From a virus, in IMG/VR virus record IMGVR_UViG_3300030117_003734, positions 3,732-47,356 of that record: a DNA stretch of 43,625 nucleotides; one strand, given 5' to 3'. Both the position numbers and the translations under genes were made by a program. Under the pieces are notes generated by a model. It was not told the origin of the DNA and did no database searches. It saw only the letters and a program-made list of their open reading frames with translations. This document shows, one piece after another, positions 709 to 4,291 of the stretch; position 1 is the stretch's first letter; every line of letters starts with the position of its first letter.

Positions 709-730
709 TTATAATAAAACCATAAGGGAT
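709..730 (+). promoter_or_regulatory. Putative TTATAATA-type promoter
   Basis: TTATAATA at 709-716 is followed by a CATAAGGG start-like stretch, matching at equal spacing the boxes near 1527, 1990, 2426, 2826 and 3141. No TTGACA-like -35 is visible at the usual distance. The transcript would have a leader of about 90 bases before the ATG at 818, with TTCCCA at 805-810. Because that leader is longer than the others, a second start nearer the gene is possible. Confidence 0.5.
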
Positions 731-817
731 AGAGTTGTTACCACCCCAACCGAGATAATTTCAAAGGAAAGGTTTACGCGACTCTATTCTCTTAAATAAT
801 TTCATTCCCAAGAAACT

Positions 818-1264
818 ATGCCAAACTGGTGCAACAACAGAGTTGACTTCTACTCAGAAAACAAAGAGGATCTAAAGAAAGTCCTAGACATCTTTTCAAA
901 TAAAGAATCCATATTTGGTCAGATCATACCAGAACCAGATTGGAAGACAACACCAAACGACAAAGGCGAACTACCTGCTAAAGACCCAAGTGAACCAATG
1001 TTCCCACCAAAGTTTCCAGATGGTACAGTTGACGACAGATGGTATATGTGGAGAGTTTCAAATTGGGACACCAAGTGGGACGCATGCGACGTGGACATTA
1101 AGGAGGAAAGATACGAAGATGAGTTGGAATCTTTCACAGCAGAATTTGATACCGCGTGGTCACCACCCGAAGCAATCTGTCATGCGTTAAGGGATATGTT
1201 CCCAGATATATCAATTTCATGGTTCTTTGATGAACCAGGAATGCAAGTAGCGGGGTATCTATAA
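818..1264 (+). CDS. Api92-like protein with ferredoxin-like domain
   Basis: The product opens MPNWCNNRVDF and has the later signatures NWDTKWDA (about residue 82) and FDTAWSPP (about residue 110). These are hallmarks of the phage and plasmid family named after Phytophthora Api92, which has a ferredoxin-like fold (formerly DUF1281). At 148 residues it is a plausible full-length single-domain member. Its biochemical role is unknown; such proteins are widespread accessory genes in phages. TTCCCA at 805-810 precedes the ATG. The stop codon is directly followed by the ATG of the next gene, so the two form an operon. Confidence 0.75.
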   Translation: MPNWCNNRVDFYSENKEDLKKVLDIFSNKESIFGQIIPEPDWKTTPNDKGELPAKDPSEPMFPPKFPDGTVDDRWYMWRVSNWDTKWDACDVDIKEERYEDELESFTAEFDTAWSPPEAICHALRDMFPDISISWFFDEPGMQVAGYL

Positions 1265-1486
1265 ATGGCATATTGTGACGTATGCTGTAACTTTGACCGC
1301 ACATTTAGGGGTGCTGATGGAAGCACCTCTCCAAGTTATCAACCCGATCTCTATTACTACTGGGACGCACCATTAGAGGAGGATTACGACTGGCGGGACA
1401 GCTTTCCTGATGTTGATTGTATGTGCGAAGTCTGTTTTGATATAGCAAATTCAGAAAAGAAAATCAAGTGGAGGTGTGCCAGTTAA
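1265..1486 (+). CDS. Small cysteine-rich hypothetical protein
   Basis: This 73-residue product has Cys at positions 4, 7 and 8 near the N-terminus and at 52, 54, 57 and 71 near the C-terminus. The two CxxC-like pairs could bind zinc in a ribbon. The middle is rich in Tyr, Trp and Asp. I do not recognise a family. The start abuts the stop of the Api92-like gene with no gap, implying translational coupling and shared expression. Confidence 0.7.
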   Translation: MAYCDVCCNFDRTFRGADGSTSPSYQPDLYYYWDAPLEEDYDWRDSFPDVDCMCEVCFDIANSEKKIKWRCAS

Positions 1487-1513
1487 TTATGTGTCACAAT
1501 CTACCACGCATCG

Positions 1514-1549
1514 GGTACAAAGTACCTTATAATAAAAGAGTAAACAAAG
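1514..1549 (+). promoter_or_regulatory. Hairpin plus TTATAATA promoter
   Basis: GGTAC (1514-1518) and GTACC (1522-1526) form a short stem with a three-base loop. TTATAATA starts at 1527, touching the stem. The start region reads AGTAAACAAAGG, resembling the CATAACAAA of the sister boxes. The downstream leader has GGAG at 1549-1552 and TTCCCA at 1554-1559 before the ATG at 1563. Confidence 0.5.
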
Positions 1550-1562
1550 GAGATTCCCACCT

Positions 1563-1691
1563 ATGTCAACACTACACCACGAAGACTTACTTCTTTCAAT
1601 CTTTGATGAAGTATGCGAAGCATTTCCATATCTTGATGAAGAGAAACAAATCGAAATCGCAAACCAAAGATTTGAGGACATATGCCAATGA
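1563..1691 (+). CDS. Hypothetical micro-protein, 42 aa
   Basis: This is an acidic 42-residue product, probably helical. It is the first of three overlapping mini-genes behind the promoter near 1527. The start is supported by GGAG plus TTCCCA just upstream and by the ATGA overlap with the next gene at 1688. No family or function is recognised. Support comes from the ordered start-stop overlaps and absence of a competing frame rather than from homology. Confidence 0.5.
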   Translation: MSTLHHEDLLLSIFDEVCEAFPYLDEEKQIEIANQRFEDICQ

Positions 1692-1813
1692 ATCACGAAC
1701 AGATTAAGGCAGCAAGCACAGCGAAACTCAGAGATTATCTTAAACAGGGTTTAGCAGATGTTGAAGAGTCGGACATGATTGAATATGAACTTTACATCAG
1801 GGAGTATTCATAA
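1688..1813 (+). CDS. Hypothetical micro-protein, 41 aa
   Basis: This unrecognised, probably helical protein of 41 residues starts at an ATG that overlaps the preceding stop (ATGA). An in-frame ATG at 1682 would add two residues. It ends TAA, whose last base is the first base of the next ATG (TAATG). Such chained overlaps suggest translational coupling across the mini-operon at 1563-1953. Confidence 0.5.
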   Translation: MNHEQIKAASTAKLRDYLKQGLADVEESDMIEYELYIREYS

Positions 1814-1953
1814 TGGACTATGATGAAATCCTCAAGTGTTATGAAGGCGAAACCGAACAGCATGCAAACACTTCATTTGAGTTTGGTTTAATGAATGATA
1901 CCTATTGGTGTCTATTCAGAGATCATGACATGTTAGAGTATGCCAGTCGTTAA
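1813..1953 (+). CDS. Hypothetical micro-protein, 46 aa
   Basis: This is an acidic, aromatic-rich product of 46 residues with no recognised domain. The ATG overlaps the previous stop by one base. It is the last gene of its mini-operon; the next promoter region begins within about 15 bases of the stop. The role is unknown. Confidence 0.5.
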   Translation: MDYDEILKCYEGETEQHANTSFEFGLMNDTYWCLFRDHDMLEYASR

Positions 1954-1968
1954 GGTGTCTACTATCCG

Positions 1969-2009
1969 TTGCTTTCATGTACTCATGCATTATAATGAGT
2001 ACATAAGCA
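1969..2009 (+). promoter_or_regulatory. Promoter with a palindrome around the -10
   Basis: TTGCTT (1969-1974) lies 16 bases before TATAAT (1991-1996), a good sigma70-like pair. The -10 lies inside a perfect 10-base inverted repeat (ATGTACTCAT at 1977-1986 and ATGAGTACAT at 1995-2004, eight-base gap). The start region matches the shared CATAA(G)CAAA pattern. GTGTCTACTA at 1955-1964 repeats the element at 102-111. The palindrome could be an operator or an RNA hairpin. Confidence 0.6.
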
Positions 2010-2025
2010 AATTTCCCATTTGATT

Positions 2026-2139
2026 ATGAGCAATCAACAAAAGAAGGCAAAAGCACTTCTTAATTCAAAAATTGATTTGATGGAATACTTCTTAGGAAGT
2101 GACCCAAAGAAAACATCTTATTACAAAAACAACAAATGA
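2026..2139 (+). CDS. Hypothetical micro-protein, 37 aa
   Basis: This Lys-rich 37-residue product follows the promoter near 1991, with TTCCCA at 2013-2018 in its leader. Its TGA overlaps the ATG of the next gene (ATGA at 2136-2139), suggesting it also serves to deliver ribosomes to that gene. No family is recognised, and a purely regulatory leader-peptide role is possible. Confidence 0.5.
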   Translation: MSNQQKKAKALLNSKIDLMEYFLGSDPKKTSYYKNNK

Positions 2140-2384
2140 ACAACTTCAAAGAATTTCTTGATTACGTTGAATCATTCTATCTTCCATCTCACCCTGACGT
2201 ACTCTACCCAATCGACAATCTAACCAGAGAGGAGATCGCATTAGCAACACTGAATTATTTGGATCTATGTGCTGTAAGTGACGTGGTTAACTGGGGTGAT
2301 GGTGACTCTTTGGATCGTGAAAGAGTCAGAGAGTTTATCATAAGCAGACGATCAACCAAACCGCAGCTGCCAGTGTTCACTTAA
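2136..2384 (+). CDS. Hypothetical protein, 82 aa
   Basis: This acidic protein of 82 residues opens with a probable helical segment and contains many Asp and Glu residues. I do not recognise the family. It is coupled by an ATGA overlap to the 37-residue gene upstream. The stop is followed within 20 bases by the hairpin and promoter at 2403. Confidence 0.65.
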   Translation: MNNFKEFLDYVESFYLPSHPDVLYPIDNLTREEIALATLNYLDLCAVSDVVNWGDGDSLDRERVREFIISRRSTKPQLPVFT

Positions 2385-2402
2385 AATACTGGCACACCTA
2401 TC

Positions 2403-2447
2403 ACCCCATTCGATCAGAGTGGGGTTTATAATAGAATCATAGCAAAC
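2403..2447 (+). promoter_or_regulatory. Terminator-like hairpin fused to TTATAATA promoter
   Basis: ACCCCATTC (2403-2411) pairs with GAGTGGGGT (2417-2425) over a five-base loop. TTATAATA follows directly at 2426-2433 and then CATAGCAAAC. The unit is nearly duplicated at 2803-2848, exactly 400 bases on, with the same stem and a different loop. TTCCCA at 2457-2462 precedes the ATG at 2465. The hairpin probably ends the upstream message, and the promoter starts the next. Confidence 0.6.
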
Positions 2448-2464
2448 GTTATTCCTTTCCCAAC

Positions 2465-2785
2465 ATGCGTAAAATTGAAATGATGATGAACTCAGCAATC
2501 AGATACAGAAAGAACTTCTCATCTGGTAATACTACAGTTCGTGCTTTCAGAGAGTCAGTTGAAGTTTATCTACACGGAAACAACATCGCTTCACTTGATA
2601 CAGCAACCCACGCTCTCACCATCTTTGATGGCGGTTGGCAGTCTAACACCACAAAATCAAGACTCAATGCACTACTTGATGAGTTCGTGCCTAGCATGCG
2701 TATCTTTCAAAACGATTGGACTTGGTACATCTCCGACAGTTTAGACGGTTCAAAACAACTTTTTACATCAGGTATGACAGTTTAA
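2465..2785 (+). CDS. Conserved phage hypothetical protein, 106 aa
   Basis: The product opens MRKIEMMMNSAI and contains LHGNNIA (about residue 36) and GGWQSNTTKSRLNAL (about residue 56). I recall this signature from small proteins found widely in phages and mobile DNA, but I know no function. It looks like a compact alpha/beta protein of normal length. It is a single-gene unit between two nearly identical hairpin-promoter elements. TTCCCA lies three bases before the ATG. Confidence 0.7.
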   Translation: MRKIEMMMNSAIRYRKNFSSGNTTVRAFRESVEVYLHGNNIASLDTATHALTIFDGGWQSNTTKSRLNALLDEFVPSMRIFQNDWTWYISDSLDGSKQLFTSGMTV

Positions 2786-2802
2786 TTACTGTCACACCCA
2801 TC

Positions 2803-2848
2803 ACCCCATTCGTATAGAGTGGGGTTTATAATAAGAACATAACAAACA
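2803..2848 (+). promoter_or_regulatory. Second copy of the hairpin-promoter unit
   Basis: The stem ACCCCATTC/GAGTGGGGT is identical to that at 2403-2425, but the loop differs (GTATA instead of GATCA), as expected if RNA structure is what matters. TTATAATA is at 2826-2833, followed by CATAACAAAC. TTCCCA at 2852-2857 precedes the ATG at 2860. Confidence 0.6.
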
Positions 2849-2859
2849 AAGTTCCCAAC

Positions 2860-3102
2860 ATGTACACAGAAAAAAGAGTTATCAGACCAAACGACGAAGT
2901 TGTAAGATACTACTGCGACAACGGATATGGTCTATCAGTTGCATGTCATGATCATTCTTACGGAGGATCCGAAGGTCTTTATGAGATTGCTCTTTTAAAA
3001 GATGACAAAATTTCATATGACGATCATGAGTGGCAAGACGTTCGCGGGTGGTTAACCAAAGCAGAGGTTTGGAGTTGGTTGAGAATTGTTTCAGAGTATT
3101 AA
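2860..3102 (+). CDS. Hypothetical protein, 80 aa
   Basis: The protein is acidic and aromatic-rich, with a Gly- and His-containing centre and a Trp-rich C-terminus. No family is recognised. It forms its own transcription unit between the promoter at 2826 and the hairpin at 3114. The start at 2860 is backed by the TTCCCA leader, two bases upstream. A 162-residue open frame on the other strand is a shadow of this gene and its neighbour. Confidence 0.65.
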   Translation: MYTEKRVIRPNDEVVRYYCDNGYGLSVACHDHSYGGSEGLYEIALLKDDKISYDDHEWQDVRGWLTKAEVWSWLRIVSEY

Positions 3103-3113
3103 ACATATGCCAC

Positions 3114-3160
3114 GGGAACTTTAATCGGTTCCCATATCCTTTATAATAAGTACATAACAA
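3114..3160 (+). promoter_or_regulatory. Hairpin plus TTATAATA promoter
   Basis: GGGAAC (3114-3119) pairs perfectly with GTTCCC (3128-3133) over an eight-base loop. TTATAATA at 3141-3148 and CATAACAAAG follow. TTCCCA at 3164-3169 precedes the ATG at 3171. The layout is that of the units at 1514, 2403 and 2803, but with an unrelated stem sequence. Confidence 0.6.
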
Positions 3161-3170
3161 AGTTTCCCAC

Positions 3171-3407
3171 ATGACAAAAACCCAAAGATTAATCAACAGA
3201 ATCAAAGAAGTCGAAAACTTCGAAAACGTTGCTTTCTTATGCGAAGACTTCGAAACCTTTATAGATGAAGTCGCAGAATGGGGAGTTGATTCAATCGCAA
3301 AGGTTGACTTTGATGACCCCGAAGTGAACCGCCCTATGATGGATGCGTTCTTTGCTTCATTCGGTTGCACACCATCTAACCCACATCCAGCAGGGAGGTA
3401 TGCGTAA
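3171..3407 (+). CDS. Hypothetical protein, 78 aa
   Basis: This acidic protein has a Lys/Arg-rich helical start and a Pro/Gly-rich C-terminus. The family is not recognised. It is the promoter-proximal gene of a unit that continues into the nucleotidyltransferase-like gene, whose ATG overlaps its TAA by one base. The shared promoter suggests the two act in the same stage of infection. Confidence 0.65.
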   Translation: MTKTQRLINRIKEVENFENVAFLCEDFETFIDEVAEWGVDSIAKVDFDDPEVNRPMMDAFFASFGCTPSNPHPAGRYA

Positions 3408-4291
3408 TGAAAAACCTACACATTGAACACCCAGAGGACACCATTCTAACTGGTGACCTCTCCGTATTAGATGCGTTCACCGCAGACAATCACTACTCAG
3501 TTAAGATTGACGGATCACCCGCTATTGTGTGGGGTACTGATCCAGAGAATGGCAAGTTCTTTGTCGGCACCAAGTCCGTATTTAATAAGAGAACCCCGAA
3601 GGTTAATTATAGCATACAGGACATTGAACGCAATCACCCTGACTTTGAATTGAATTCAATCTTAATACGTTGTTTTAACTGTTTACCACGTATCGGTTTT
3701 GAGGGTCGTGTATTTCAAGGGGATTTCATCGGATTCGGAGGTTACAGAGATTATAAACCGAACGCAATCAGTTATACTTTCGATACTGTTCAGAACGTGG
3801 GTGTAGTCGTCGCACCACACACAGAGTATAAGGGAACAACTCTTAAGGACATGAACGCAGAACCCTTAATTGAGAAGTTAGATCCGACAATGTTTGTTCA
3901 ACCTGATGCGTGGATCAGTGAGTATAAGGGCAACGTAATGAATATTGACATGATGATAGGGTTCGCCCGTCAGATGGCAACACTTGTTGACTTCGCCACC
4001 CCAAAGGAAGCGGAGTTATTAAAGAAGGATCTAAATGCATACATTCGTGACGGTGATGAAGTGGTAGCAGAGGAGTTCGCTAACTATCAGTTGGTTCGCT
4101 TGTGGTGCTTAGTTGAGAACATCAAAACTGAATATATGAAGTTAATGCGGGATGATTTCAAGGTTGATTGCTTCTTAGGTAATGAATACGTAGACGGTGA
4201 GGGATACGTCATGACGGGTGAGCATGGCACATATAAATTGGTGAACCGTTGGGTGTTCAGTCATTATAACTTTAATATCGTTCGTTCGTGA
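3407..4291 (+). CDS. Nucleotidyltransferase / RNA-ligase-like protein
   Basis: The order of motifs is that of the covalent nucleotidyltransferase superfamily (DNA and RNA ligases, capping enzymes). Motif I KIDG has the candidate AMP-accepting lysine at residue 33. FQGD (103-106) resembles motif III, EGYV (265-268) motif IV and YKLV (276-279) motif V. About 160 residues, mostly helical, separate motifs III and IV, far more than in T4 Rnl1 or Rnl2, so the substrate cannot be assigned. Cyanophages carry relatives of this protein, usually unannotated. RNA or DNA end sealing or capping is the inferred activity. At 294 residues it appears complete and ends just before a strong hairpin. Arg is often CGT, unlike the AGA-rich structural genes. 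Confidence 0.6.
   Translation: MKNLHIEHPEDTILTGDLSVLDAFTADNHYSVKIDGSPAIVWGTDPENGKFFVGTKSVFNKRTPKVNYSIQDIERNHPDFELNSILIRCFNCLPRIGFEGRVFQGDFIGFGGYRDYKPNAISYTFDTVQNVGVVVAPHTEYKGTTLKDMNAEPLIEKLDPTMFVQPDAWISEYKGNVMNIDMMIGFARQMATLVDFATPKEAELLKKDLNAYIRDGDEVVAEEFANYQLVRLWCLVENIKTEYMKLMRDDFKVDCFLGNEYVDGEGYVMTGEHGTYKLVNRWVFSHYNFNIVRS

Follow-up and report, generated by a model that had tools for sequence, protein, structure and literature searches.

Why do small early genes in one stretch of DNA from an ocean cyanobacterial virus begin, again and again, with the same compact arrangement of a hairpin and a TATAAT box? The stretch that we analysed, hereafter the window, comprises 43,625 nucleotides (positions 3732-47356 of a 47-kb virus record, IMGVR_UViG_3300030117_003734), and its structural genes match those of Kyanoviridae and their relatives, for example AG-345-L05, P-SSM2 and S-SKS1. 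The repeated units sit in its small-gene region, upstream of the baseplate genes; in S-SSM7 and P-SSM2 the equivalent place is occupied by annotated small hypothetical genes ahead of gp25. Rfam and tRNA searches of the window returned no match. One of its small genes (2465-2785) belongs to the Kyano_Gp96 family (PF23790), which is conserved and whose position moves among related phages.

Our comparison confirms that the repeated unit is real, and that it is larger than the hairpin, box and start that the original prediction described. The features in the window are the following.

86-143, + strand: divergent seventh unit, with a palindrome at 86-109 (TGTGCCACTTTTTTTAGTGTCTAC), a TTGACA -35-like hexamer, TATAGT at 138-143, a TTCCCA leader and an ATG at 173 (weak in the model scan; sequence)
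656-679, + strand: upstream palindrome of unit 710, holding the preceding gene's stop codon at 669-671 (model scan)
679-701, + strand: terminator-like hairpin of unit 710, followed by TTTTTT (-10.4 kcal/mol)
710-715, + strand: -10 box TATAAT of unit 710 (sequence match, model scan)
721-792 (fold region 721-817), + strand: structured insertion, about 70 nt long, in the unit 710 leader, folding into a long stem (-22 kcal/mol, z = -3.1)
1475-1498, + strand: upstream palindrome of unit 1528, holding a stop codon at 1484-1486 (model scan)
1514-1527, + strand: short hairpin of unit 1528, abutting the -10 (folding)
1528-1562, + strand: TATAAT and leader of unit 1528, up to the ATG at 1563 (sequence match, model scan)
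1939-1962, + strand: weak upstream palindrome of unit 1991, holding a stop codon at 1951-1953 (model scan)
1977-2004, + strand: 10-bp palindrome over the -10 of unit 1991 (TATAAT at 1991-1996), with a leader up to the ATG at 2026 (sequence)
2373-2396, + strand: upstream palindrome of unit 2427, holding a stop codon at 2382-2384 (model scan)
2403-2425, + strand: 9-bp hairpin of unit 2427, abutting the -10 (-15.3 kcal/mol)
2427-2464, + strand: TATAAT and leader of unit 2427, up to the ATG at 2465 (sequence match, model scan)
2773-2796, + strand: upstream palindrome of unit 2827 (TATGACAGTTTAATTACTGTCACA), holding a stop codon at 2783-2785 (model scan)
2803-2825, + strand: 9-bp hairpin of unit 2827, a near copy of 2403-2425 (sequence, folding)
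2827-2859, + strand: TATAAT and leader ATAACAAACAAAGTTCCCAAC of unit 2827, up to the ATG at 2860 (sequence match, model scan)
3114-3133, + strand: 7-bp hairpin of unit 3142, with no palindrome upstream (folding)
3142-3170, + strand: TATAAT and leader ATAACAAAGTTTCCCAC of unit 3142, up to the ATG at 3171 (sequence match)

TATAAT occurs at 710, 1528, 1991, 2427, 2827 and 3142, each time after a stop codon and ahead of the next small gene, and a hairpin accompanies all six boxes, lying directly before TATAAT, a few bases before it, or over it (1977-2004). The compact start claimed for five or six sites is present at all six, and the stems do differ in sequence, apart from the two copies at 2403 and 2803, while keeping their position. 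The start at fixed spacing holds in part: exactly 6 bases separate TATAAT from ATA (GTA at unit 1528), but only units 2827 and 3142 have CATAACAAA letter for letter, the remaining ones carrying the variants CATAAGGGA, AGTAAACAAA, CATAAGCAAA and CATAGCAAA. Five units had been said to lack a -35, and indeed only unit 710 has an acceptable hexamer, TTTAAA, within the hairpin loop. The motif is well above chance in the window, as TTATAATA-N2-6-CATAA has three matches against 0.09 expected. Moreover, a cassette model built from other contigs, excluding the close relatives of the window, scored 56.8 at unit 2827, 39.4 at 2427, 36.9 at 1528, 33.9 at 710 and 12.3 at 1991, so that five window units exceed every one of 60 shuffles (best score 6.3). 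The upstream palindromes and the divergent seventh unit, whose model score is weak, were absent from the original prediction. At unit 3142 we found no upstream palindrome, while hairpin, -10 and leader are kept; because of this, and of the poor palindrome at unit 1991, the palindrome appears to be dispensable in some units.

The leaders vary. The insertion at unit 710, which is missing in the relatives L007 and L008 and has no Rfam match, is possibly a structured leader or a small RNA. TTCCCA stands right before the starts at 173, 818, 1563, 2026, 2465, 2860 and 3171, where a clear Shine-Dalgarno sequence is mostly missing, and also before start codons in L007-L010; the leaders of S-SSM7 have AGAGG-like sequences or none. 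We rejected TTCCCA as a key leader element on inspection of the leaders, only 32 of 327 of which contain TTCCC or TCCCA, mainly in close relatives of the window.

Scanning related virus contigs with the motif recovered 337 full-flank copies of a cassette about 75-80 bp long, in the order TGTGMCASTT-N4-AASTGKCACA (24 bp), 29±1 bp, TATAAT, six bases, a ATAACAAACAAA leader of about 19 nt, and ATG. An alignment of 248 units on TATAAT gives the same palindrome, 29 bp, TATAATAAGTAC and ATAACAAACAAA, the right arm of the palindrome having been part of the selection pattern, with the left arm free and the spacing selected to a range only. The relatives comprised DNA-pattern matches together with phage genomes retrieved through homology or by accession number, and for many loci the search pattern itself set the permitted range of spacing; an overly permissive first scan of the collection was superseded by stricter pattern scans and a palindrome-only scan. 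With the palindrome alone as query, 157 sites were read in both directions; of these 314 oriented sites, 88 have a -10-like box at 29 or 30 bp, compared with about 2 at other offsets, and in S-SSM7 the spacing is exactly 29 in 16 of the 20 units found at 27-32. An ORF of 30 or more codons begins downstream of 327 of the 337 units, after a leader with a median of 19 nt (mostly 15-27 nt); these downstream ORFs are small (median 83 aa), and the stop codon of the upstream gene falls inside the palindrome in 191 of 320 units.

The unit had been called phage-specific; instead, cyanobacterial Kyanoviridae and their relatives carry it widely. The counts of strong units are 18 in S-SSM7, 13 in P-SSM2, 10 in S-SRM01 (scanned up to its last few kb), 8 in S-PM2, 5 in P-SSM4, 4 in S-SKS1 and 2 in Syn9; the part of the Bellamy genome that was scanned has 4 units, and scans of T4 and of HTVC008M, a phage of SAR11, each up to the last few kb, gave none. 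The strong units are clustered, with 16 of the 18 in S-SSM7 within 38.9-51.8 kb and 12 of the 13 in P-SSM2 within 53.9-68.1 kb, in both cases upstream of gp25.

The palindrome also occurs in other settings. L477 (1-390) and L117 (1630-1980) contain tandem palindrome arrays, mostly about 57-62 bp apart, most copies then followed by TTGACA, with no evident genes in between. In L516-L559 the same 24-bp palindrome turns up in genomes of cyanobacteria, acidobacteria and others, among them several contigs of one Pyrinomonadaceae MAG, mostly in a different context and with no -10 at 29 bp.

What, then, does the palindrome do? It is the most constrained of the additional elements and keeps a fixed distance from the -10. 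We infer that it behaves as a protein-binding DNA site and not as an RNA hairpin, since there is no covariation between the arms: bases at the A/C-T/G position are unassociated (p=0.61), those at the G/C position are anti-associated, and the real arms pair at 4.71 of 7 positions on average, fewer than shuffled arms (4.86). It might be thought to act in RNA, as a second terminator or as a protector of the 3' end of the upstream mRNA, given that it overlaps so many upstream stop codons and that some copies can form a 7-10 bp stem; we reject this as very unlikely on the ground of the missing covariation, and the rigid distance to the -10 also speaks against it. A dimeric palindrome phased to a promoter would suit a repressor as well as an activator, and stemless units with a TTG -35 could fire unaided, so that an operator through which the genes are shut off later in infection deserves consideration. 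However, hairpin units without a -35 would need help firing, and the usual positions of repressors do not include a site centred near -53; hence we regard an operator as somewhat unlikely. Least probable, and by our estimate barely credible, is a role in site-specific recombination, with the palindrome as the site that brings about the exchange of cassettes. Although homology switches at or near the palindrome in pairs sharing only the downstream gene, and although the palindrome has outer TG...CA ends, such a site would not need a fixed 29 bp to the -10, homology also switches on the leader side (nine pairs share only the upstream gene), and ordinary homologous recombination during phage replication suffices. 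As for the protein that would bind the site, none of 19 P-SSM2 proteins that are common to unit-rich cyanophages and missing from T4 and HTVC008M looked like a regulator in a rough screen of the sequences by eye. A host transcription-factor regulon was considered, and a palindrome scan of 84,980 genomes showed no sign of one: of its 44 hits, none lay in a record with Prochlorococcus in the title and hardly any had a -10 at 29 bp; a host factor without chromosomal sites of exactly this form may bind the palindrome.

Between palindrome and -10, by contrast, it is position and not sequence that is kept. A strong stem is present in 43% of the 218 distinct spacers (5.6% after shuffling), and its sequence is free. 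Where a stem ends early, 5 or more of the next 8 bases are T in 22 of 44 cases, compared with 7 of 88 stemless units (p=1e-7). The hallmark of an intrinsic terminator, a G+C-rich stem and then a U-run, is present at 679-701 and weak at the stems that abut TATAAT, and because the T-run there is weak, a terminator role of the abutting hairpins is uncertain. One could argue from these stems, and from the hairpin lying over the -10 at 1977-2004, that the variable hairpins are DNA palindromes for regulators or mere chance. We consider this unlikely, as stem sequences vary freely while pairing and position are kept, and as the T-runs after early-ending stems resemble those of intrinsic terminators. 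A TTG -35 occurs in 31% of stemless units but in 7-13% of hairpin units and 4% of shuffles (Fisher p about 0.001), which suggests that hairpin and -35 compete for one and the same space.

Does the cassette also bear on gene order? The gene families of the window recur in other contigs in different orders. Neighbours in the window remain side by side in 49 of 62 cases without an intervening unit and in 20 of 58 with one (Fisher p=1e-6), counts that ignore relatedness and whose p-values are inflated because loci and pairs are not phylogenetically independent. Among 104 pairs of near-identical spacers with both neighbours readable, similarly non-independent, both neighbours are unrelated in 37, only the downstream gene is shared in 14, and only the upstream gene in 9; in the window itself, unit 2827 and the L008 unit at 3409 have a common upstream gene and different downstream genes. 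Cassettes mark points where early genes were reordered. The proposal of a terminator-plus-promoter unit for swapping small early genes is partly supported, and, as far as comparison reaches, well supported: recurrence, hairpin position and breaks in gene order agree with it, but the hairpin is optional and present in under half of the copies.

Taken together, the unit is quite probably a swappable gene-to-gene junction of the promoter-early stem-loop (PeSL) type, made up of a palindrome-bound protein, a spacer hairpin or a -35, TATAAT and a leader; we infer its promoter, terminator, activator role and start site from sequence. Each unit would end one small early gene and start the next. A dimeric DNA-binding protein would occupy the 24-bp palindrome, centred about 53 bp before the transcription start, and the 29-bp spacer would hold either a weak -35 (TTG...) or, instead, a variable hairpin that would terminate the upstream transcript. 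The host primary sigma factor would bind TATAAT, and transcription would start about 7 bases past it, at the A of ATAACAAACAAA, so that the 5' ends of unit transcripts would be expected at the A of ATAACAAA, followed by an unstructured leader of about 19 nt and the start codon. We propose that the -35 region is free for a terminator because the palindrome-bound protein helps the polymerase. Because all junctions have a similar sequence, the cassettes could serve as recombination homology, and recombination between them would allow genes to be inserted, lost or reordered one by one, each carrying its own signals for start and stop.

Marine cyanophages are among the most abundant T4-like viruses. 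The cassette offers a testable promoter grammar for them (palindrome, 29 bp, TATAAT, leader), a mechanism by which their many unknown small genes could turn over fast, and a means of predicting transcription units and gene boundaries in cyanophage contigs. We found no earlier description of the upstream palindrome in a literature search outside the original PeSL and Syn9 transcriptome papers. Control of early and middle promoters in cyanomyoviruses, which have no motA or asiA homologues, was called still unclear in a 2010 review (PMC2984593). T4 middle promoters, at which a MotA box at -30 acts with AsiA (PMC2988021), are similar in having an activator box in place of the -35 and a strict TATAAT downstream; however, the MotA box is single and near -30, whereas the conserved cyanophage box is a palindrome centred near -53. 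The TATA-box/inverted-repeat units of the haloarchaeal virus HGTV-1 (PMC3950731) likewise place an inverted repeat and a promoter element before many small ORFs, and shuffling was proposed there too, but the promoter is archaeal and the sequence unrelated. Class I/II activator-dependent sigma-70 promoters, such as those of CRP, share a dimeric site at a fixed helical phase upstream of the -10 and a weak -35. To our knowledge, the palindrome sequence matches neither the CRP nor the NtcA consensus. The odds are, in our view, slightly below even that cyanobacterial T4-like phages have a distinct promoter class, in which a putative dimeric activator (phage or host) at a 24-bp palindrome near -53 replaces the -35, freeing room for a nested terminator and making each early gene a self-contained swappable cassette.

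The closest likeness is to the PeSL cassettes of T4-type phages, reportedly described by Arbiol and colleagues in 2010 and Comeau and colleagues in 2014. Both combine an early promoter, a predicted one in the cyanophage units, with a stem-loop, repeated between small genes of a hyperplastic region, with shuffling at the units. At the sequence level, stem-loop and promoter share one short intergenic unit at the six window units, copies recur across a variable region made up of small early genes, and gene order breaks at the units; of a complete sigma-70 promoter, the TTG of the -35 is mostly missing in hairpin units and frequent in stemless ones. PeSLs were argued to be less dense in the variable region of S-PM2 than in other T4-like phages, where their density is high (PMC4503421), whereas S-SSM7 and P-SSM2 carry dense arrays of units. 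The cyanophage unit differs in having a conserved palindrome of 24 bp that lies 29 bp ahead of the -10, in the nesting of the stem between the two, in a -35 that is often missing, and in usually including the upstream stop codon. By function, the units are probably the cyanophage counterpart of the T4-type PeSL cassette, one that includes an upstream box and nests its hairpin.
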